DNA of 64,000 nucleotides from Sialis fuliginosa (lineage: Eukaryota > Arthropoda > Insecta > Megaloptera > Sialidae): positions 2,604,001-2,668,000 of the forward strand of contig OY540812.1 in the NCBI GenBank assembly GCA_961205875.1. The letters are read 5' to 3'. Both the position numbers and the translations under genes were made by a program. Shown here piece after piece: positions 2,926 through 58,775 of this stretch. The stretch's first letter is position 1; the number at the start of each line of letters is the position of its first letter. The notes beneath the pieces were generated by a model. The model was not told the DNA's origin. It did not search any database and saw only the letters and a program-made list of their open reading frames with translations.

Positions 2926-3410
2926 TTATGAACTCATGTTACTAATAAAACAAGTAACTCTTTATTTAATCAATTTAATTACCAAAGTCTTCAAATATAG
3001 TTTTTTTTTTAAATTATAGCCTTTTATTTTGTTTATGTTTTTTTTCCAGTAATGGATAAAGTAAAACCAGTAATGAGCATGAAGTGATGGACACTTTAAA
3101 CAAAATGATAAGTACTACGACACAAAAATCGTCAAATTTGAAACAATGTAAAGCAGTTTCTATGATAATATAATAATAAATAAATAAATTATAATAACAT
3201 AATAATTATAATAACAATTAGTTTTAATGTTAGTTTAAATGTCAACTATTTTAACACCTATTGGCCGATTGTCATCAAATCACGCTGTAAGACAGTTAAA
3301 TGTATATAGATTAATATTCAGAAATGGTAGTAATCAAACATCAACAAATATTTATAATTCAGTACATTTAATTAAAAATTCGCCATTACTGGAGTCTGTG
3401 CCAATACCTT
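2926..3410 (-). mobile_element. Family A MITE, copy 2 (one end missing)
   Basis: Shares the interior of copy 1 almost base for base from ATGAACTCATGTTACTAAT to the end GTGCCAATACCTT. The terminus carrying the GCTCTTATAGCGGCC stretch is absent. Internal differences include a short AT-rich ATAATAATAA segment near 3165-3210. Confidence 0.65.
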
Positions 3411-7745: not shown

Positions 7746-9207
7746 GCGTCATCGCCCGTTTAGTTAAAAATGGCGACGCTGTCATAACTCTTTTTGTGAG
7801 TGGGCCGTAAATTTTGAGACTGCGATTTTGAAATATATTTCGTGAATCGGGCATGTGTTATATTTCGACGATAAAAGAAGTAATTTTCTACTTTAGAATT
7901 ATAATAAAATTATAGAAATCGTAACATGAAAATAAATTGTTTCTCAAGATAAAATTTACATTACAAATTAATATATAGGATGGCCCGTAAGTCTTGACCA
8001 CAGGAAAAAAATAATAGTCAAACAATGTATTATAATATAATCTGTTAAAAATGTCCGAAGTTGTAACTTGCAACATAATTTTAAAAATAACAGAAAATCG
8101 GGACACTGAATATAAAAATTTTAGATTCAATTTTTACATCGAGAAATAAAATTTTTAATTGTACCTAATATTTATTACGATATTAATCGATTAAAATCAA
8201 TTTTTAGTGTTATGTGCCAAATGTCCATCCGTCCATCTGTCTGTCACAAGTGATTTGCTCTGTAAAAATAATAATAATTCAAGAAAGAATAATTGTTAAA
8301 AAAGCATTATCTACTCAGAAGATTCGAATACTCGTAAATACCGAGTAGCGGCAGTTACGACCCCTGCGGACTTAACTTGAAATGCTAATGTGCTTGCATT
8401 ATACGAGTTAATTTGTTAGCGTTTGTGATTTCCATCTTCGTCGTAAATAACTCCCTTTCTACGTCGCTTCTCTTCTACCCACCAACGGTGTGTATATTGC
8501 TTAATTTAGTTGGTTTTTAGTTAAAATCTTGATAGGGCCTGGGTTCTTTCCACATTTTTATTTATTGGTCCTGAACCCGATTGCAATTATGATAAATATT
8601 ATGTAATTATGCATTCGGACTGTTTCTTTAAGAATACATTTCCGTATTAATATTTAATATTCAAATTAATGAAAATATATAACGTCTCATAGTTTGTGAA
8701 TTTTTATCAAGTTTGTAAGCTTGCAAGGATTTAGAATAGGGTTTAAAATCATAAGTCAGTTTTTTTTTTAACTTTTTTTTTTGGGGGGGGGGGGCGGTCT
8801 ACAGACTCACTTAGACTGAATTTAGTGACCTGTGTTCAAATATGAGTATATAAGGTACTGGCACCAGTCTTGGACTCTTGTTTAATAAAATGTATAACTA
8901 AATTAGAAATATTTTTTGATATTTGATTACATACTGCCATTATTGAATCATAATCTATAGACAATTAACTGTAAAACAACTTAATTTGATAACAATCGGT
9001 CAATGGTGGACAATTAAACTAGTTATTAATAGTGTAATCTATTTTTTAATTATTATATTATCATAGCAGCTGTTTTATATTGTTTCAAATTTTATGATTC
9101 TTTATTTTATAACTTTTGTATCGTAATTATTAGAAAGTATCACCGAGTGTCCATTACTGGTTTTATTTTGACCATTATTGGAGATAAAACATAAACAAAA
9201 TAAAAGG

Positions 9208-9386
9208 TTTATAACAAACAACAGACAAAAACTATGGTTATGACTTATCAAATAAAAATCCCCTAACCATAAAATTTGTAATAGTTTAGACTTACACGTG
9301 TTTCAATAGCAATACTATCATCATCAGAGTCCTAAAGACACATAGTGTCTTTACAATTTTTATGGTTGGGGGATTTGTATTTGATA
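9208..9386 (-). mobile_element. Small hammerhead-ribozyme retroelement, copy 1
   Basis: An insertion of 179 bp interrupts family A and is bracketed by the 11-bp duplication AAAATAAAAGG (9197-9207 and 9387-9397). On the minus strand it contains a hammerhead core. Its first part is inversely repeated after the ribozyme, so stem I can extend over about 35 bp. Minus-strand positions 9248-9207 are identical over 42 bp to 23334-23375, and the layout matches the 175-bp element at 35397-35571. Known relatives are hammerheads in Penelope-like elements and small non-autonomous retrozymes. It encodes no protein. Confidence 0.75.
9281..9337 (-). ncRNA. Hammerhead ribozyme (type I-like, short stem III)
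   Basis: Read on the minus strand: a stem I strand ending GACT, the invariant CTGATGA (9327-9321), a stem II hairpin with ATAG/CTAT pairing and a short loop, the invariant GAAA (9304-9301), a very short self-complementary stem III (ACACGTGT), then GTA as the cleavage triplet with the predicted cut between 9293 and 9292. AGTC follows and pairs with GACT; TAAA pairs with TTTA across a single bulge. All core residues of the family are present. The minimal stem III is like that of Penelope-type hammerheads, which may act as dimers. Confidence 0.75.
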
Positions 9387-9967
9387 AAAATAAAAGGCTA
9401 TAATTTAAAAAAATAAACTATATTTTCGGATTTTGGTAATTAAATTAATTTAATAAAAATATACTATTTTTAACATGAGTTCATAACAATTTCAAAAAAC
9501 AGTTACCTTGTTCTTAATGCGTCTAAGACTGGTGCTAGTGCCTTATATTAATCACTACTGCTTTTAGATCACCGATTCCTACTTAGTTATTAATAAATGC
9601 CGTACAACTGTCATTTAAATTTAATATCATTCAAAAAACGTTTAGTTGATAGATTTAAAAATTTTACTTTCTGATTCTCTTAAAAATTTCAGACCTCGCC
9701 ACTTATGTCAGGTAATGAACAATACTAAAAAATACAGTTACTATTTTTTGCACTTACAAATAAATAAACAAGCAATACAAAATTTATGTTTGAAATTAAA
9801 AACACCGAACACTAATATTCCTATTACAAGCTTTCAAACTAATTACAATTTTTTTTATTTTTGCAAGAACAAAATTAAAAACAATAAATAACAAATATAT
9901 CCATCTTACATTTGCCGAAAACAATACTGTGCAAATTAAAACAATAAATAGTACAACATCATCATAT

Positions 9968-13059: not shown

Positions 13060-13967
13060 GAAGCAGGGGAAGCAGTGCTTCCCTTACTTTATGGGTAAAT
13101 TAATACAAATCCGCGTGTTTTCAGTTAATAAATAATTTAAAAAAATTATTAGAATATTCATCTTTATGCGCAACTCAAACATTTTAATCAAAAATAGCAT
13201 TTAATATTAATTTACACGCTCAATTATAAAACTATACGTCTTATTTTTTTGTTTTTTAGTCGATATTTGTATGACGAGTTGAAGTTCACTGCAGGAAATT
13301 TCACTAAAATTTTTTGAATTTTTGATTTCGTTAAAAGTATGTTTATTGTATAGAAAATGGCGTGAAAAGTTGTTTGTTTCAAACTGCAGGTCTGTATCTC
13401 AAACCGTTCTCGAGATATAGCCTCTCAAAGTTTCTGTTTTTTCAAAATTATGAAGAAAAATGGCCCTAACTTTTGAATGCGTGGTCGGAATTGATTTTAG
13501 TTGACGGATTTGGAATCAGCGTGTCAAAATCTATGTAATAACATGTATAATACCTTAAAACTCGAAAAAATTTTTTTTACGAAAAATCGAAAAAATTCAA
13601 AGGGGTATACCTTAAAAAAATGTCGATTTTTGGTCAAAATTTTTTTGTCGGATTTTAAAGTATTATACATGTCATTATATAGATTTTGACACGCTGATTT
13701 CAAATCCGTCAACCAAAATCAATTCCGACCACGCGTTCAAAAGTTATGGCCTTTTTTCTCCAAAAATTTGAAAAAACTAAAACTTTGAGAGGCTATATCT
13801 CGTGAACGATTTGAGATACAGACCTGCGGTTTGAAACAAACAACTTTTTACGTCATTTTCTATACAATAAACATACTTTTAACGAAATCAAAAATTCGAA
13901 ATTTTTTAGTGATATTTCCTGCAGTGAACTCGTCATACAAATATCGACTAAAATACAAGAGAATATA
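13060..13967. mobile_element. Foldback element with ~350-bp palindromic arms, copy 1
   Basis: After a leader containing GAAGCAGGGGAAGCAGTGCT, the sequence from about 13261 to 13600 is repeated in inverted order to about 13960. Both arms carry GTATGACGAG, CCTGCAGTGAA, CTCGAGATATAGCC-like and GGTCGGAATTGATTTT blocks. Two overlapping 62-codon frames on opposite strands give nearly the same peptide (MTDL.SACQNL), a direct consequence of the palindrome and not evidence of a gene. A second copy lies at 30222-31168 and a fragment at 46170-46352. Confidence 0.8.
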
Positions 13968-22563: not shown

Positions 22564-22964
22564 ATTAACCCATTAACGTCCACCGTGTGTACACCTCATT
22601 TTATAATTCGTGTTGCTTTCTATGGATATTAATTCACAATATTTCCTTAAAAATCAGATACTAGTAGTGCAATAAACAAAATCTGTTAACCTTATTAGTT
22701 TCATGAGTGTTTAAAAGTGTTTTAATTGCTGCGAATTATTTGTATATATATGAATAGAGGCATGTAATATGCTAATATATTTTATCCAACTGAAGCATGT
22801 GATTTCGAATTTTGTTTAAATCATATGGAATAACTTAAATGTATGATTTTTAAATGTAATTTATCTATAAAAAAAATGCAGTCTCACACAAAATAAGCTT
22901 CATATCTGTCAAATTTACTCGTACAAATGAACACCGTTATTTTGTTGTAATAATTAGTTAAATA

Positions 22965-23450
22965 CAGTGTAACCTTAATATAACGAGCCTCAATATAACG
23001 ATTTCCTCGATTTAACAATTTTTTCGAAATCCCCTAGAACTGCCCGTAAGAGCTAATGCAAAATATACCTTTATATTACGAATACATTTATCAACAACCT
23101 CTTTATAACGAATTTTTCGACAGGTTCAGACACGTTAAATTTTTCGTAAGACAATCATTATTGTTTTTTTTTTTTGCTGTTTGTCACTGTTGCTAGTTTT
23201 AAAGTTGCAATGGCTGAAAAACAAAAAAGGTGTTCCTTAACCGTCGCAAAGAAACGAGAAAAAATAGACATCGCTACATTCTTACCTTGTTATAACGAAT
23301 TTATATAACAAACCTCACTGTTAAATACAATAAATAAGTCATAACCATAGTTTTTGTCTGTTGTTTGTTATAAACCTCACTGTAACAAATTACTTGGTAT
23401 AACGAATATTTTCTACTTCCCTTCAGTTTTGTTATATCGAGGTTGCACTG
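22965..23450 (+). mobile_element. pogo/Tigger-like DNA transposon remnant
   Basis: Ends are CAGTGTAACCTTAATATAAC and the inverse of CAGTGCAACCTCGATATAAC, with TA on both outer sides (22963-22964 and 23451-23452), the pogo/mariner target. The interior carries more ATATAACGA-type repeats. A short frame from 23210 (MAEKQKRCSLTVAKKREKID) resembles the N-terminal start of Tigger/CENP-B-type transposases, where a basic helix-turn-helix begins. It stops within 31 codons, so the copy is internally deleted and non-autonomous. A 50-bp piece at 23322-23371 is a later insertion. Confidence 0.75.
23322..23371 (+). mobile_element. Truncated third copy of the hammerhead retroelement
   Basis: A 50-bp insertion in the pogo remnant, flanked by the 12-bp direct repeat AAACCTCACTGT (23310-23321 and 23372-23383). 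Positions 23334-23375 match 9248-9207 on the opposite strand over 42 bp without a mismatch. This corresponds to the 3' end of the element, as expected for a 5'-truncated retroposed copy. The ribozyme part is absent. Confidence 0.65.
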
Positions 23451-23697
23451 TATATTGTATGTGTACTTAAAAAAATCTTCTGTATGTTTTTCTTTTCTTT
23501 TGGGCGTTAATGGGTTAATAAAAATTATCGATGAAGGATATTCAATATGAATATGCGGCAATTTCAAATCAATGTTTCGCTCGATCAAAACAAGTCTAAC
23601 TGAAAATATATATACACATTTCAATTTGTAGTGATAGTTTTATGGTTATATTTTATTGATATCTAAATAAATTCTCGGAATACGTCTAATTTACGAT

Positions 23698-25880: not shown

Positions 25881-26388
25881 TAAGGTAGTGGCACCAGTCT
25901 TGAAAAGGATCCCAGTAATGGACATTTTTTTATTAAATGTACTGAATTAGAAATATGTGTTGATATTTGATTACTACCATTTCTGAATATTAATCTATAT
26001 ATGTACATTTAACTGTCTTACAACGTGATTTGATGACAATCGGCCAATAGGTGTCAAAATGGTGGGCATTTAAACTAATTATTAGTATAATTTATTTATT
26101 AATTATTATGTTATCATAGCAACTGTTTTACATTGCTTCAAAGACGATTCTTTTTTTATATCTTTTGTGTCGTAGTATTTATCATTTTGTATATAATCAT
26201 TAGCAAGCGTCCATCACTGAGTGCTCAATACTGGTTTTACTTTATCCATTACTGGAGATGAAACATAAACAAATTAAAATGCTATAATTTAAAAAACAAA
26301 CTATATTTGCGGACTTTGGTAATTAAATTGATTAAATAAAAAGTTACTTGTTTTATTAGTAACATGAGTTCATGAGAATTACAAAAAA
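25881..26388 (+). mobile_element. Family A MITE, copy 4
   Basis: Starts TAAGGTAGTGGCACCAGTCT and contains the full family A interior, including GTGATTTGATGACAATCGGC and TTTATCCATTACTGGAGATG. It ends near CATGAGTTCATGAGAATTAC; the last 60-bp terminus is missing. The 76-codon minus-strand frame is part of the repeat and recurs in other copies. Confidence 0.7.
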
Positions 26389-30221: not shown

Positions 30222-31168
30222 CAGTGGCGGAGCGTCCATGGAAGCAGGGGAAGCAGTGCTTCCCTTTCTTTATGGGTAAATTAATTCAAATCTATGTTTT
30301 CAGTTAATAAATAATTTAAATATATTATTAGAATATTCGTCTTTATGCGCAACTCAAACATTTTAATCAAAAATAGCATTTAATATTAATTTACACGTTC
30401 AATTATAAAACCATAATATCATTACGTCTTATTTTCTTGTATTTTAGTCAATTTTTGTATGACGAGTTGAAGTTCACTGCAGGAAATTTCACTAAAAAAT
30501 TTCGAATTTTTGATTTCGTTAAAAGTATGTTTATTGTATAGAAAATGACGTGAAAAGTTGTTTGTTTCAAACCGCAGGTCTGTATCTCAAACCGTTCTCG
30601 AGATATAGCCTCTCAAAGTTTTAGTTTTTTCAAATTTTTGGAGAAAAAAGGCCATAACTTTTGAACGGGTGGTCGGAATTGATTTTAGTTGACGGATTTG
30701 AAATCAGCGTGTCAAAATCTATATAATGACATGTATAATACCTTATAACTCGAAAAAAAAAATTTCGCGAAAAATCGAAAAAATTCAAAGGGGTATACCT
30801 TAAAAAAATGTCGATTTTTGACGAAAATTTTTTTGTCGGATTTTAAAGTATTATACATGTCATTATATAGATTTTGACACGCTGATTTCAAATCCGTCAA
30901 CTAAAATCAATTCCGACCACTCGTTCAAAAGTTATGGCCTTTTTTCTCCAAAAATTTGAAAAAACTAAAACTTTGAGAGGCTATATCTCGAGAACGGTTT
31001 GAGATACAGACCTGCGGTTTAAAACAAACAACTTTTCACGTCGTTTTCTATACAATAAACATATTTTTAACGAAATCAAAAATTCAAAAAATTTTAGTGA
31101 AATTTCCTGCAGTGAACTTCAACTCGTCATACAAATATCGACTAAAATACAAGAAAATAAGACGTAGA
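30222..31168. mobile_element. Foldback element with ~370-bp palindromic arms, copy 2
   Basis: Begins CAGTGGCGGAGCGTCCATGG, followed by a 200-bp leader shared with copy 1. Then comes a near-perfect palindrome from about 30427 to 31165 centred near 30796. Each arm holds GTATGACGAGTTGAAGTTCA, CTCGAGATATAGCCTCTCAA and GGTCGGAATTGATTTTAGTT in mirror order. The CAGTGGCGG start is hAT-like, but no matching right terminus is present. A 62-codon minus-strand frame is the same incidental peptide seen in copy 1. If transcribed it would form a very long hairpin. Confidence 0.85.
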
Positions 31169-38551: not shown

Positions 38552-39859
38552 CGTCACTGTATAGTCATATAATTCATACATACTTCTGTATATGTGAACA
38601 AACATACATACATTAACACAATTCCGGTATAATAAAGTTTTCATTTATTTTTTCTTTATATAACCGCCAAGATGGAAAACGTGATTTTTTAAACTTGAAT
38701 GTTATTTATCTGATTTAAAATTACAAGCATTAATAATGCAATTATTAATATATGTAGATAATTATAAGATAATTGTAACAAATATGAACATTTGCTTATA
38801 AATATGTCATATTAATTTATAAAAAAGTAAGTAATTTTTAACATTTTTATGTATATACTTCAGTTCCGTACAAATTGAAATATTAATATAAATATAATAT
38901 AAACTATTTTAAATACTTACGTCATTTGAACTGTACGATACAACACGGACTTTAAAAATGAAAAAAGTGTGTTTCATTTTTAACCTCTAATTTGGGAAAA
39001 AGTGAAATATGGAAAATATTTCTCGAAAAATTAAAAGAAAAGCTACAAAGGCAACTTTGATTCATCTTCTTTGTGGCATATCAATGTGAAATTGTAACTT
39101 TAATTAATATCTGAGCTATACAGAAAGTTATGTGCAAAGAATTAAAATTTAATTCACACGTTTTGACATCGACTAACAGGGAAATCTGTAGGGGTGACAC
39201 ATCACTTATTAGGCGATTCATATTTACAGGTCGCTTTAACAAACCTTTAATGATGATGTCAGTTTTTATAATTCTCCTATAAACAAATTAGTTTTTTAGT
39301 TGCAAGCTTGTTTCACTTTTACCCCATTTTTTTGGTGTTTCATATTTACCCCACTCGACCCTACATATTTCTCGGAGTAATATATATAATAATATTATAT
39401 TGTATATTTAATAATATATATGCTATTAATCCAATAACATATGTTTATTTATTTATTTTTATACAATTTATGTATGATAGGTATATACAATATACATATT
39501 TGTAGTTACATATGTATGTAGAAACTATAATTATTTACAATATCCTGTAACGACAAATGAATGAGTTAAGGAATACATACATACTTCCGTTTTCATTTGA
39601 CCCGCAGGTGTTAAGTGACTTACGATGTACTTAATACACCTGAATAATTACTCTTAATTAAAAACTTTATATGCGTATTAGAATTGTTTATGTGAATTTA
39701 GTCTATTTAAGTTAACTAACTAAAAAATAATGTTTTTAATTATGAAATTTTTTTTGAAAGTGGAGGGGGGGGGGTAAATTAATTCAAAGTAATATACCTA
39801 TTATAGTAATTGTAAAATGATTCTAGTTTTTAATTCCTTATATTGCAAAATTACAACAA

Positions 39860-40709
39860 CTCGTTTTCTATTAAAATAATGTATACCTTGGTCTTAAAGC
39901 GGCCAAGACTGGTGCCAATACACTACTGGCTGGTAAATAACTCTATTTCATGAATTCTTAACTAATTTTTACAAATAAAAGCATCGTTTTTCAAACAACC
40001 CGTTTTCTATTAAAATAATGTATACCTTGGTCTTAAAGCGTCCAAGACTGGTGCCAATACACTACTGGTTAGTAAATAACTCTATTTCATGAATTCTTAA
40101 CTAATTTTTACAAATAAAAGCATCGTTTTTCAAACAACCCGTTTTCTATTAAAATAATGTATACCTTGGTCTTAAAGCGGCCAAGACTGGTGCCAATACA
40201 CTACTGGTTAGTAAATAACTCTATTTTATGAATTCTTAACTAATTTTTACAAATAAAAGCATCGCTTTTCAAACAACCCGTTTTCTATTATAATAATGTA
40301 TACCTCGGTCTTAAAGCGGCCAAGACTGGTGCCAATACACTACTGTTTAGTAAATAACTCTATTTCATGAATTCTTAACTAATTTTTACAAATAAAAATA
40401 TCGTTTTTCAAACAACCCATTTTCCATTAAAATAATGTATACCGTGGTCTTAAAGCGGCCAAGACTGGTGCCAATACACTACTGGTTAGTAAATAACTCT
40501 ATTTTCTGAATTCTTAACTAATTTTTACAAATAAAAGCATCGTTTTTCAATCAACCCATTTTCTATTAAAATAATGTATACCGTGGTCTTAAAGCGGCCA
40601 AGACTGGTACCAATACACTACTGGTTAGTAAATAACTCTATTTTATGAATTCTTAACTAATTTTTACAAATAAAAGCATCGTTTTTTAATCAACCCGTTT
40701 TCCATTAAA
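39860..40709 (+). repeat. Tandem array, 139-bp unit, six copies
   Basis: The word GTCTTAAAGC begins at 39891, 40030, 40169, 40308, 40447 and 40586, exactly 139 bp apart each time. Units differ at only a few positions. Each contains AAGACTGGTGCCAATACACT, close to the terminus of family A, and ends with an ACAAATAAAAGCATCG stretch. Not coding. The constant period and low divergence indicate recent expansion. Confidence 0.93.
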
Positions 40710-40799
40710 AACATGTTCCCTATCTAAAAAACGTCTAAGAAAACTATGATTAATTTATTTGAGGCAGATAAAGCTACGTACGTTTTCGTAACAAAGAAT

Positions 40800-47244: not shown

Positions 47245-48290
47245 TTGTAATCCATTACTGGTTTTTACTTTCTTATACCATGTATATGAAATATACATTA
47301 GTATAAGTAAGTATAGTGAAGCCGATTTTTTTCGAACCTCGGATTTTGACGGAATTATCTATTTTGACCTTCCCTTAATCCATTCTGACTATTTTCGCCA
47401 TGATGTCTGTGTGTCCGTCTGTCTGTCTGTCTGTAAGCGCTGTAACTCAAATACGACAAATCGTAGAACGGTGATATTTTATATTTAAGATTAATTTTTG
47501 GCTGGGAAGAAAACGTCCTATTTTTGAAAACGATCTTTCAACCGGATACGGATGTTTGCCTACGTCGATTTTTTAATTTTTCGAATTACTCTGAAACAGT
47601 ACAAAATTGAGAAAAATGGTCAAGTTAAAAAATGTAGGCAATATCTATATCTATAATTTATGTTCTATTCATTTTTTTGTAAAAACGAATTTTTGAAGAA
47701 AAAAAATTATTATAATTCAAATGGTTCATAACAGAGGAGAAATATCTGCCATGAGTGTCATGGGACTTTCTTATACGTATTACAGAGATTGAACAGTGTG
47801 TGTATTTGCCGTAGGTAACATGGGACTTTCTTATACGTAATACTGAGAGTGAACTGTGTAGGTGAATCTAAATAATTACATAAAAAAATTCTTTCTGGCT
47901 AAATCATAAATGTTTGAAAAAATGTATGGGGAATAAATTATAGATAATAACATACTCGACATTTTTTATCTAAAACATTTTTTTCTTATTTCAAAAATAA
48001 GTCAACAATCCAAAAATTTACAAGAGTAAACATCCGTTTTCAGTTATTACGTTAAAAAAAAAAAAACACTTGTTATATAATGGAGAGAATAATATTACCT
48101 ATATATTATTCATTTTGTTTTATTTTGTTAGAAATGTTTTAATAAACAAAGAATCACGTATACAATTCACTGTTAGGTTAGGTATAAGAAAGTCCCGTGG
48201 TTCCCAAGGCAGATATTTCTTTATCCATTACTGGAGAAAGCCATAAACTAAATAAAAGGGTGGTTTAGCTTTTGAATAATTAGTTTATTT
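47245..48290. mobile_element. Family M element inserted in a family A copy
   Basis: Family A sequence (CCATTACTGGTTTTTA near 47252) is interrupted and resumes at 48217 (TTATCCATTACTGGAGAAAG, then the CATAAACTAAATAAAAGG-type block to about 48290). The insert (about 47266-48213) begins CTTTCTTATACCATGTATAT and ends GGTATAAGAAAGTCCCGTGG. It has internal TCTGTCTGTC and repeated GGGACTTTCTTATACGTA motifs. A shorter copy lies at 54629-55372. No transposase; the 91-codon frame at 47213 is incidental. Confidence 0.65.
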
Positions 48291-48345
48291 TCACGATGAG
48301 ATGTTATTTCATGTAATTAAAACAAATTTTTTTTGCATATTCCAG

Positions 48346-48682
48346 GGTCACCACGACGAACCACACCTCCAACTAACAATAACAGCCACCAGGTGGTGCT
48401 CTCGTCGCCACAGGTCATGGGAGTTGTGAGCGAAGGTTCACCCAAGCTAGACGTGCAGGGCCCGTGCGGGGGTGAAGCGATGCCCCCGGGTGGAGCACCA
48501 GGAAGTGGTGGTGGCGGCGGTGGAGGTAGTGTTTCAGATAACAACAGCGATGATGCTGGCGATGCTGATGAGTTTACGCCGAAACGTAAACAGCGTAGAT
48601 ATAGAACCACGTTCACTAGTTTTCAGTTGGAGGAGTTGGAGAAAGCGTTCTCGAGGACACATTATCCAGATGTTTTTACCAG
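48346..48682 (+). CDS. al: Aristaless-like homeodomain protein, one internal exon (partial gene)
   Basis: Paired-like homeobox transcription factor exon, expected to act in the nucleus. In Drosophila, Aristaless patterns distal appendages. The acceptor is TTCCAG|GG at 48345/48346; the donor is ACCAG|GTTAGT after 48682. The exon opens in the last two bases of a codon. I favour translation from ATG at 48417-48419 (context GTCATGG): it gives [12 protein letters not shown], reminiscent of the Drosophila Al start. From there: a Gly/Pro-rich stretch with seven glycines (residues about 24-37), an acidic [14 protein letters not shown] segment, the basic PKRK, then homeodomain residues 1-31 (protein residues 59-89). 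The Arg at homeodomain position 31 is split by a phase-2 intron. Helix 1 and the start of helix 2 are present; helix 3 and the rest must lie beyond 64000. The exon is far GC-richer than its surroundings. Arx and Aristaless are nearly identical in this part; in an insect, Aristaless is the likelier name. Confidence 0.88.
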
Positions 48683-49181
48683 GTTAGTAAATCATGGATT
48701 GATTCATCTTTTTGTTTGTTAGGCGGCTATTCATTGACATGGCTGGACTGATGATAAGTCAGATATGATGGCTGAAATTGAATATTTCCTAACAACTGAA
48801 ACTGATTATGCGCATGCGTCAACGGATGTTCGAAATTCAAATTTATCAAATTGATTTGTTAAATATATAAATAAATACATACAAGTTCGATTGTATATCA
48901 ACTACAATACACTTATTTAACACGCGAATACCTGTAATTTATTTTAATTATCAAATAATAACTAAATAAACAACCATAGATGCATATTAACTGTCAAATC
49001 TGATTAACAATTGAATAAAGAAACTAATAACTCTATATTATATCAAAATTTAGTTCAGTGTTGCGTCTTGCGCATGCGCAATTGGAAACGATACTGTTAG
49101 TACTAAAAGTATGAAATTTAGCCATCCGGTTTAATAGTAATTCCATAGGTATCCACTATCCAGTTAAATAATACCAGATCA

Positions 49182-53528: not shown

Positions 53529-54035
53529 TGTAGTGGCACCAGTTATGGCCGCTATAAGAGCAAAGTTTACTGTTTTTGTGATTGACGGGCTTTTTTTGCA
53601 ATCTATAAAAACAAATAACTCATTTTTAATCAATTTAATTATCAAAGTCCGCAAATATAGTTTGTTTTTTTAAATTATAGACTTATTTTGTTTATGTTTT
53701 TTCTCCAGTAATGGATATAGTAAAACCAATAATGATGGACACTTACTAATGATTACTACGACACAAAATATATAAAATAAAGAATCGTCTTTAAAACAAT
53801 GTAAAGCAGTTGCTATGCTAAAATAATAATTAATAAATAAATTATACTAATAATAATTAGTTTAAATGTCCACCATATTGACACCTATTGGCCGATTGTC
53901 ATCAAATCACGCTATAAGACAGTTAAATGTATATAGATTAATATTCAGAAATGGTAATAATCAAATATCAACAAATATTTCTAATTCAGTACCTTCAATT
54001 AAAAAAATAGCCATTACTGGGGTCATATTCAATAT
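53529..54035 (-). mobile_element. Family A MITE, copy 5
   Basis: From TAGTGGCACCAGTTATGGCC, through GCAAAGTTTACTGTTTTTGT and the shared interior, to CCATTACTGGGGTCATATTC. A second short piece of the same end (ACCATTACTGGGGTCATATC) recurs at about 54140, inside a local direct duplication of roughly 130 bp (54036-54245) that includes TTTTCCCCTCG and GGGGGTCTATGGT. Confidence 0.65.
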
Positions 54036-55599: not shown

Positions 55600-56046
55600 T
55601 TTAATTAACTGTCTTACAGCGTGATTTGATGACAATCGGCCAAGAGGTATCAAAATGGTGGACATTTAAACTAATTATTAGTATAATTTATTTATTATCA
55701 TAGCAACTGCTTTACATTGTTTCAAATTTTACGATTCTTTCTTATATGTCTTTTGTGTCGTAGTACTTATCATTTTGTAATCATTAGCTAGTCTCCATCA
55801 CTGCGTGCTCATTACTGATTTTACTTTATTTATTACTGGAGAAAAAAAAAACATAAACAAAATAAAAGGCTATAATTTAAAATACAAACTATTTTTGCGG
55901 GTTTTGATAATTAAATTGATTAAATAAAGAGTTACTTGTTTTATTAGTAACATGAGTTCATGAGAATTACAGAAAAGGAGCCCGTCAATCACAAAAACAG
56001 TAAACCTTGCTCTTATAGCGGCCATAACTGGTGCCAGTACCTTATT
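55600..56046 (+). mobile_element. Family A MITE, copy 6
   Basis: From TTAACTGTCTTACAGCGTGA through the shared interior to the complete right terminus ATAGCGGCCATAACTGGTGC plus CAGTACCTTA. The left terminus is missing. Confidence 0.68.
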
Positions 56047-58059: not shown

Positions 58060-58775
58060 ATTTATATAATTTTATATTTCGGTTAAAATTGCGACATACA
58101 TTATACATTAATTGATGTTTCCCGTATTACATGAATACTCACGCAATAAATTCAAATTAAAAAAATTGTCAAATGCGAGTCGAGGTTCACGAGTTAGTGT
58201 CCCGTACCGAATTTATTCGATTAATTTCGGTTAAAATTGCGACATACATACATTAAGTGTTGTTTCCTGTATTACATGAATACTCACGCAATAAATTCAA
58301 ATTTAAAAAAATGTCAAGTGCGAGTCGAGCTTCACGTATTAGTGTCCCGTACCGAATTTATTCGATTAATTTCGGTTACATTAATTGATGTTTCCCGTAT
58401 TAGTTTTCATGAATACTCACGCAATAAATTCAAATTTAAAAAAATGTCAAGTGCGAGTCGAGCTTCACGTATTAGTGTCCCGTACCGAATTTATTCGATT
58501 AATTTCGGTTACATTAATTGATGTTTCCCGTATTAGTTTTCATGAATACTCACGCAATAAATTCAAATTTAAAAAAATGTCAAGTGCGAGTCGAGCTTGA
58601 CGTATTAGTGTCCCGTACCGAATTTATTCGATTAATTTCGGTTACATTAATTGATGTTTCCCGTATTAGTTTTCATGAATACTCACGCAATAAATTCAAA
58701 TTTAAAAAAAATGTCAAGTGCGAGTCAAGCCTCACGTGTTAGTGTCCCGTACCGAATTTATTCGATTATTTTATT
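58060..58775 (+). repeat. Tandem array, 133-bp unit, about five copies
   Basis: GTCCCGTACCGAATTTATTC starts at 58199, 58344, 58477, 58610 and 58744. The spacing is 133-134 bp except for the first interval (145 bp). Each unit also contains TGAATACTCACGCAATAAAT and GTGCGAGTCGAGC. A lone diverged unit end occurs at 61838-61875. Three overlapping frames here are products of the repetition; the unit length is not a multiple of three, so they drift between frames. Confidence 0.92.

Follow-up and report, generated by a model that had tools for sequence, protein, structure and literature searches.

The window, the 64-kb stretch of DNA analysed here, contains a MITE-like repeat interrupted by a 179-bp insert, and within that insert, on the minus strand, lies a candidate type I hammerhead ribozyme (HHR) at the tip of a long RNA rod (Table 1). 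An earlier reading made from the sequence alone (the sequence-only reading) had described a precise insertion with 11-bp target duplications nested in a MITE, and both points were borne out. The two direct repeats agree at all 11 positions, the host at 8848-9548 is MITE-like with 28-nt inverted termini, and the insert is absent from 5 of 5 other host-repeat copies that span the site within the window. At 3020-3030 and 55859-55869 two of these copies keep the 11-bp site unchanged; it has one change at 966-976, two changes at 26271-26281, and an altered form in the fifth copy, near 53690. The insert has no terminal direct repeat inside its duplications, and at 179 bp it is too short for a reverse transcriptase (RT) ORF.

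A sixth, partial host match at 48213-48259 was left out of the empty-site count because its homology ends at the site; in this MITE-like fragment the break falls exactly at the AAATAAAAGG site of the 179-bp insertion. A tandem array at 39855-40710 (139-bp unit, 6.2 copies) has about 32 bp of its unit in common with the end of the host repeat, and the array seems to have arisen by amplification of a terminal fragment of that repeat.

Table 1. Positions of the insert, its hammerhead parts and related features in the window.
Feature	Position	Strand	Sequence	Remarks
Host repeat, MITE-like	8848..9548			28-nt inverted termini at 8848-8875 and 9521-9548; 5 site-spanning relatives in the window
Target duplication, copy 1	9197..9207		AAAATAAAAGG	Identical to 9387-9397
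Inserted element	9208..9386	minus (sense)		179 bp, GC 0.29; flush target duplications; no counterpart in 5 site-spanning host-repeat copies
Target duplication, copy 2	9387..9397		AAAATAAAAGG	11/11 match to copy 1
Rod (37 bp), 5' arm	9351..9387	minus		Inverted repeat; outermost base 9387 lies in the target duplication
Side hairpin	9335..9351	minus	AAGACACUAUGUGUCUU	Between rod and stem I; minimum-free-energy (MFE) fold
Candidate type I HHR	9288..9332	minus		From descriptor with shuffles, coordinates and folding
Stem I	9332-9328/9292-9288	minus	GGACU/AGUCU	
Core motif	9327-9321	minus	CTGATGA (CUGAUGA)	
Extra U after A9	9320	minus	U	Between A9 and 10.1
Stem II	9319-9305	minus	GAUAG-loop-CUAUU	
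Core motif	9304-9301	minus	GAAA	
Stem III strand	9301-9294	minus	ACACGUGU	As 2-bp stem: A-C-[ACGU]-G-U
Predicted cut	9293/9292	minus		H17 = A at 9293
Rod (37 bp), 3' arm	9245..9281	minus		Inverted repeat
3' tail past the rod	9208..9244	minus		37 nt; exact match in the second insertion
Second insertion, same element	23322..23374	plus	5' AAATACAA	53 bp: 41-nt identical 3' part plus the 5' piece; without rod and hammerhead
Its target duplication, left	23310..23321		AAACCTCACTGT	12 bp
Its target duplication, right	23372..23383		AAACCTCACTGT	First AAA common with the element's 3' end

A second insertion with the same 3' end

A second insertion of the same element lies inside a repeat at 22963-23452 whose termini are alike at 20 of 24 nt and which we take to be a pogo/Tigger-like short repeat; the window holds no other copy of this host that would show an empty site. 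The second insertion and the 179-bp insert agree in all of their last 41 bases; each ends in ...TTGTTATAAA, after which the target continues with CCT. The two are also alike at their 5' ends, where the second insertion has an 8-nt match to the first 16 nt of the 179-bp insert, a match equalled by 91 of 20,000 random pieces of the window. Since the first AAA of the right-hand duplication is common to the element's 3' end, the target duplication is 9-12 bp long. A reading of the shared 44-bp block (9205-9248 and 23334-23377) as part of the pogo-like host was rejected because the 12-bp duplication around it points to an insertion.

The simplest reading of the two sites is one unit with fixed ends, whose second copy lost the rod. 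Their undecayed duplications and exact shared part argue that both insertions are young, and the letters of the hammerhead are therefore probably close to those of its source. This bears on the earlier proposal of a compact non-coding retroelement family processed by its own ribozyme, which stood in part: a discrete retroinsertion with an HHR core is present and the unit recurs, sharing its 3' end exactly and its 5' end approximately, but the recurring copy lacks the HHR, which is found in one window copy only, and processing by the element's own ribozyme is a prediction.

The hammerhead core and its predicted folds

The layout of a type I HHR was found on the minus strand, with CUGANGA, GAAA and NUH in place, three stems in order and stem I open. 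CTGATGA stands at 9327-9321 and GAAA at 9304-9301, which puts the predicted cut at 9293/9292, where the sequence-only reading had placed it. That reading had further described a stem I that closes with a single bulge; the outer four pairs beyond the bulge are possible, but their pair probabilities in the folded insert are only 0.016-0.096. In the predicted fold stem I runs out into an unpaired stretch and a side hairpin, and the hairpin forms a three-way junction with that stem. Stem II closes on a G.U pair that adjoins the bulged U. Five features go beyond the sequence-only reading: the extra U at 9320, the G.U pair of stem II, the instability of stem III in the monomer, the 37-bp palindrome and the second insertion at 23322-23374.

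A viroid offers a precedent for an extra nucleotide after A9. In the portion of PMC3705267 available, the plus HHR of chrysanthemum chlorotic mottle viroid has an extra A at the same place; this A slows cleavage in trans moderately, and the rate rose 3-4-fold when it was replaced by U. An excerpt of PMC3088659 reports that poor cleavage is frequent among natural HHR cores that carry insertions or changes, and that some are inactive; by analogy this would count against an active ribozyme here.

The HHR sits at the tip of a rod whose arms are complementary at 34 of 37 positions. The whole insert folds at z = -5.3 against 200 shuffles, none of which (0/200) folds as well. The window contains three other strong short-spaced palindromes, so that a palindrome as such is not rare here. 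Two long fold-back palindromes are also present at 30423-31166 and 13242-13965, with self-matches of 93% and 87% over 744 and 730 columns, and the similarity between the two is about 90-92%.

All 8 nt of the stem III strand, ACACGUGU, make up a perfect palindrome, so the strand equals its reverse complement. When the monomer is folded, the four inner pairs of stem I have pair probabilities of 0.77-0.83 and those of stem II 0.62-0.85; the two stem III pairs, at 0.008 and 0.009, are essentially absent, and forcing the HHR core in the monomer costs 2.6 kcal/mol (-48.5 vs -51.1 kcal/mol). In energy-model predictions that start from one sequence, whose palindrome by itself favours dimers, two 53-nt cores folded without constraint formed a double hammerhead at -23.5 vs 2 x -6.8 kcal/mol as monomers. 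The same double hammerhead was obtained from two full-length RNAs (-112.1 vs -102.2) and from a hypothetical head-to-tail tandem (-110.5), and in all these unconstrained folds the two hammerheads share an 8-bp stem III. By these predictions the HHR needs two copies, joined in trans or in tandem, to fold properly. On the insertion data and these folds, 9208-9386 is a real, young and compact retroinsertion with a plausible dimer-type hammerhead.

Known hammerhead elements and competing explanations

Our preferred reading of the insert, to which we give roughly even chances, is a compact retroelement of the retrozyme type: it would be non-autonomous, its RNA would be cut in dimeric form, and a Penelope-type enzyme would probably mobilise it. 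In the part of PMC7229834 (Cervera and de la Pena 2020) available, animal HHR elements are expressed as RNAs of ~170-400 nt and insects are named among the groups with such repeats; the earlier suggestion that the unit may be undescribed was accordingly too strong as regards the kind of element. The insert resembles the metazoan non-LTR retrozymes of that source in its type I HHR, a unit within ~170-400 nt at low GC (179 nt, GC 0.29), the lack of LTRs and protein, target duplications of more than 4 bp (here 11 and 9-12 bp) and a highly self-paired RNA. It differs from them in two ways. First, the retrozymes described there are tandem repeats, from dimers up to 62-mers in a coral, whereas a single unit stands at both sites in the window. 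Second, most invertebrate retrozymes are reported there to self-cleave efficiently as single motifs, whereas stem III here predicts dimer dependence. Because head-to-tail tandem HHR units are a defining feature and were not found in the window, we call the insert retrozyme-like; its membership of the retrozymes is not established.

Closer parallels for the stem III region come from amphibians. The same portion of PMC7229834 describes axolotl HHRs with a one-pair stem III and a palindromic tetraloop, or with a two-pair stem III and a weak stem II base, that cleave far better as dimeric constructs. The insert is like the axolotl/newt retrozymes HHR_Amex1 and HHR_Amex2 of that source in its 1-2-bp stem III with a tetraloop (palindromic in Amex1) and its weak stem II base (Amex2); those elements are tandem units of 330-350 nt, whereas the insert is 179 nt long, single and marked by the extra U after A9. 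The SMalpha SINE-like HHR retroposons of Schistosoma, as treated in an excerpt of PMC8490949, are likewise short retroposons with an HHR, but the unit of the SMalpha-like W element is 335 bp. In the insert no Pol III B box was found with ≤2 mismatches, its sense strand contains three T4-T5 runs, and no tRNA was detected in the window (ARAGORN, bacterial code); by the tests made, the insert is not a Pol III SINE.

The competing explanation that survives best, unlikely in our judgement, sees in the insert what 5' truncation left of an autonomous Penelope-like element (PLE), a very short copy whose HHR would be that of the PLE leader and whose 3' end would be the enzyme's fixed internal start; there would be no independent small element. 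PLEs carry minimal HHRs, and the insert shares with the PLEs described in the accessible parts of PMC11167929 and PMC7761336 a minimal type I HHR, a preferred internal RT start, AT-rich targets and a 30-40-nt tail. The Anolis enzyme starts at preferred internal sites, favours AT-rich DNA and can leave optional 30-40-bp tails; its HHR cut lies 26 nt into the ORF and its start site at 111-118 (PMC11167929). Subtraction of these figures gives a cut-to-start distance of 85-92 nt, and the predicted cut here lies 85 nt before the element's 3' end, an agreement that amounts to a single number. The 3' end common to the two insertions would suit a fixed start as well, but their similar 5' ends are not what random truncation gives. 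Moreover, the PLEs of these sources are autonomous, with an RT and GIY-YIG ORF, whereas the ATG in the hammerhead core meets a stop after 10 codons and a Pfam scan that covered 9 of the window's 10 ORFs of ≥100 aa found no RT or GIY-YIG domain.

The ORF left out of that scan (48317-48622, minus) is antisense to a homeobox ORF, and a Cas_csx3 match returned by the scan was weak, fell below the curated cut-off and was taken as chance. The homeobox ORF, at 48321-48722, encodes an aristaless-like homeodomain. Its best PDB match is 3a01 (aristaless; E 1e-17), which we take to be the Drosophila protein, ahead of vertebrate relatives, which makes an arthropod origin of the DNA plausible; an intron is likely, since the match leaves the homeodomain after profile position 30.

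We regard it as distinctly unlikely that the hammerhead likeness is accidental or dead, with the insert being some unrelated small element, fold-back or SINE-like, that has no ribozyme activity. Under a strict descriptor, which required ≥4 bp in stems I and II and ≥2 bp in stem III and allowed an extra nucleotide after A9, 23 matches arose in 17,625 dinucleotide-shuffled windows. With stem III reduced to ≥1 bp there were 61 matches in 17,625 shuffles and 61 in 17,036 in another run, 36 of the latter counted without the extra nucleotide; a first small run of 60 shuffles gave 0. When a palindromic stem III strand of ≥6 nt was required, 3 matches in 17,036 shuffles were left. These rates are to be read with the fact that the palindrome test and the optional nucleotide were set after the sequence had been seen, at a site that an earlier reader had chosen from a scan. 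By looser descriptors, about 0.0013-0.0036 chance matches are expected per window and several in a whole genome, so the motif alone is not proof; the weight of the HHR reading comes from its position at the rod tip of a discrete young insertion. The other palindromes of the window and the G.U pair and bulged U at the base of stem II favour an accidental or dead motif. Against this stand the 8-nt palindromic stem III strand and the double hammerhead, which is the unconstrained optimum of the folds. The descriptor found no other such HHR motif in the 64-kb window. A tandem array at 58104-58772 (133-bp unit, 3.7 copies in the best row) contains no hammerhead motif by the same descriptor.

Covariance searches point the same way as an accidental or dead motif. 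The sequence-only reading had named a missing covariance-model hit as evidence against itself, and this was the outcome: Rfam hammerhead models gave no match over the window at the gathering score, and none at E ≤ 10 on 401 and 63 bases around the site, in searches run without a positive control for such variants. The missing match counts against an ordinary hammerhead. We weighed it lightly because the 2-bp stem III and the extra U depart from the consensus. Pattern scans of other collections yielded no relatives. In viral_contigs a 16-base motif occurred in six contigs, with CTGANGA within the preceding 60 bases in 0 of 6 (by eye), and further exact-pattern scans of that collection found no relatives. 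In genome_contigs one contig, L007 (a MAG contig), matched inside a long open reading frame, and RF00163 had no match in its genome, nor in 14 control genomes. These absences mean little, since the two collections consist of viral and prokaryote sequence.

More doubtful again is the explanation of the palindrome as an insertion scar, in which the same RNA was copied from both target strands at two starts 37 nt apart until the copies met. The Anolis PLE enzyme does extend both target strands, with two start sites one 30-40-bp 'tail' apart (PMC11167929); the rod ends flush with the target duplication and leaves a 37-nt tail outside one arm, and a short inverted arm is one possible reading of the second copy's 5' piece. 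However, the arms differ at 3 of 37 positions while the duplications and shared ends are undecayed, and that 5' piece has the bases of the left arm, AAATACAA, where the right arm reads AAATAAAA; a fixed unit would give this result. A terminal-inverted-repeat DNA transposon (MITE) or repair filler is scarcely credible: a long palindrome and an 11-bp duplication would suit it, but the insert's ends are not inverted repeats of each other, the rod stops 37 nt inside one end, the duplications measure 11 and 9-12 bp, and an unrelated target carries an insertion with the same 3' end.

A candidate route of processing and mobilisation

For the retrozyme-like element, we infer the following route. RNA would be made by read-through, including head-to-tail or multimeric forms, and two HHRs would pair through ACACGUGU into a double hammerhead that cuts out unit-length RNA; a single unit, having no stem III, would stay intact and might serve in linear form or after circularisation. 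Next, a reverse transcriptase, of the Penelope type or another target-primed kind, would start at a fixed 3' point, copy one unit length and insert it, possibly aided by pairing of a CCU in the RNA with an AGG target end, for which the CCT that follows the element in both targets (n = 2) is a weak basis. The insert's ends lie off the predicted cut, which argues that the template was a circle or uncleaved RNA and not a linear cleavage product. In the second copy the enzyme would have skipped the rod, perhaps by jumping across its base.

By analogy with the Anolis system, a Penelope-type enzyme appears to be the best candidate for mobilisation. Other results from that system pull in the opposite direction: HHR mutants had no effect on insertion in vitro, the PLE HHR cut only with added protein, and no reads ended at the cut (PMC11167929). 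As far as the analogy holds, the first of these results would tell against a required role of the HHR, and evidence from the same system would tell against the CCU pairing idea.

A more specific form of the retrozyme-like reading, possible but short of probable, is that the HHR acts as a copy-number gate. It would form only in multimers, by way of the 8-nt palindromic stem III, so that multimeric precursors are cut to units and the 179-nt rod RNA, when single, escapes its own ribozyme and becomes the template from which a Penelope-type enzyme copies exactly one lap. How circular retrozyme RNAs escape re-cutting by their own ribozyme is a question left open in the available part of PMC7229834. 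The common 3' end and clean duplications make the mobilising enzyme a testable question, and if the gate is real, the re-cutting question would have a direct, testable answer in a stem III that needs two units to form, within a very small unit.
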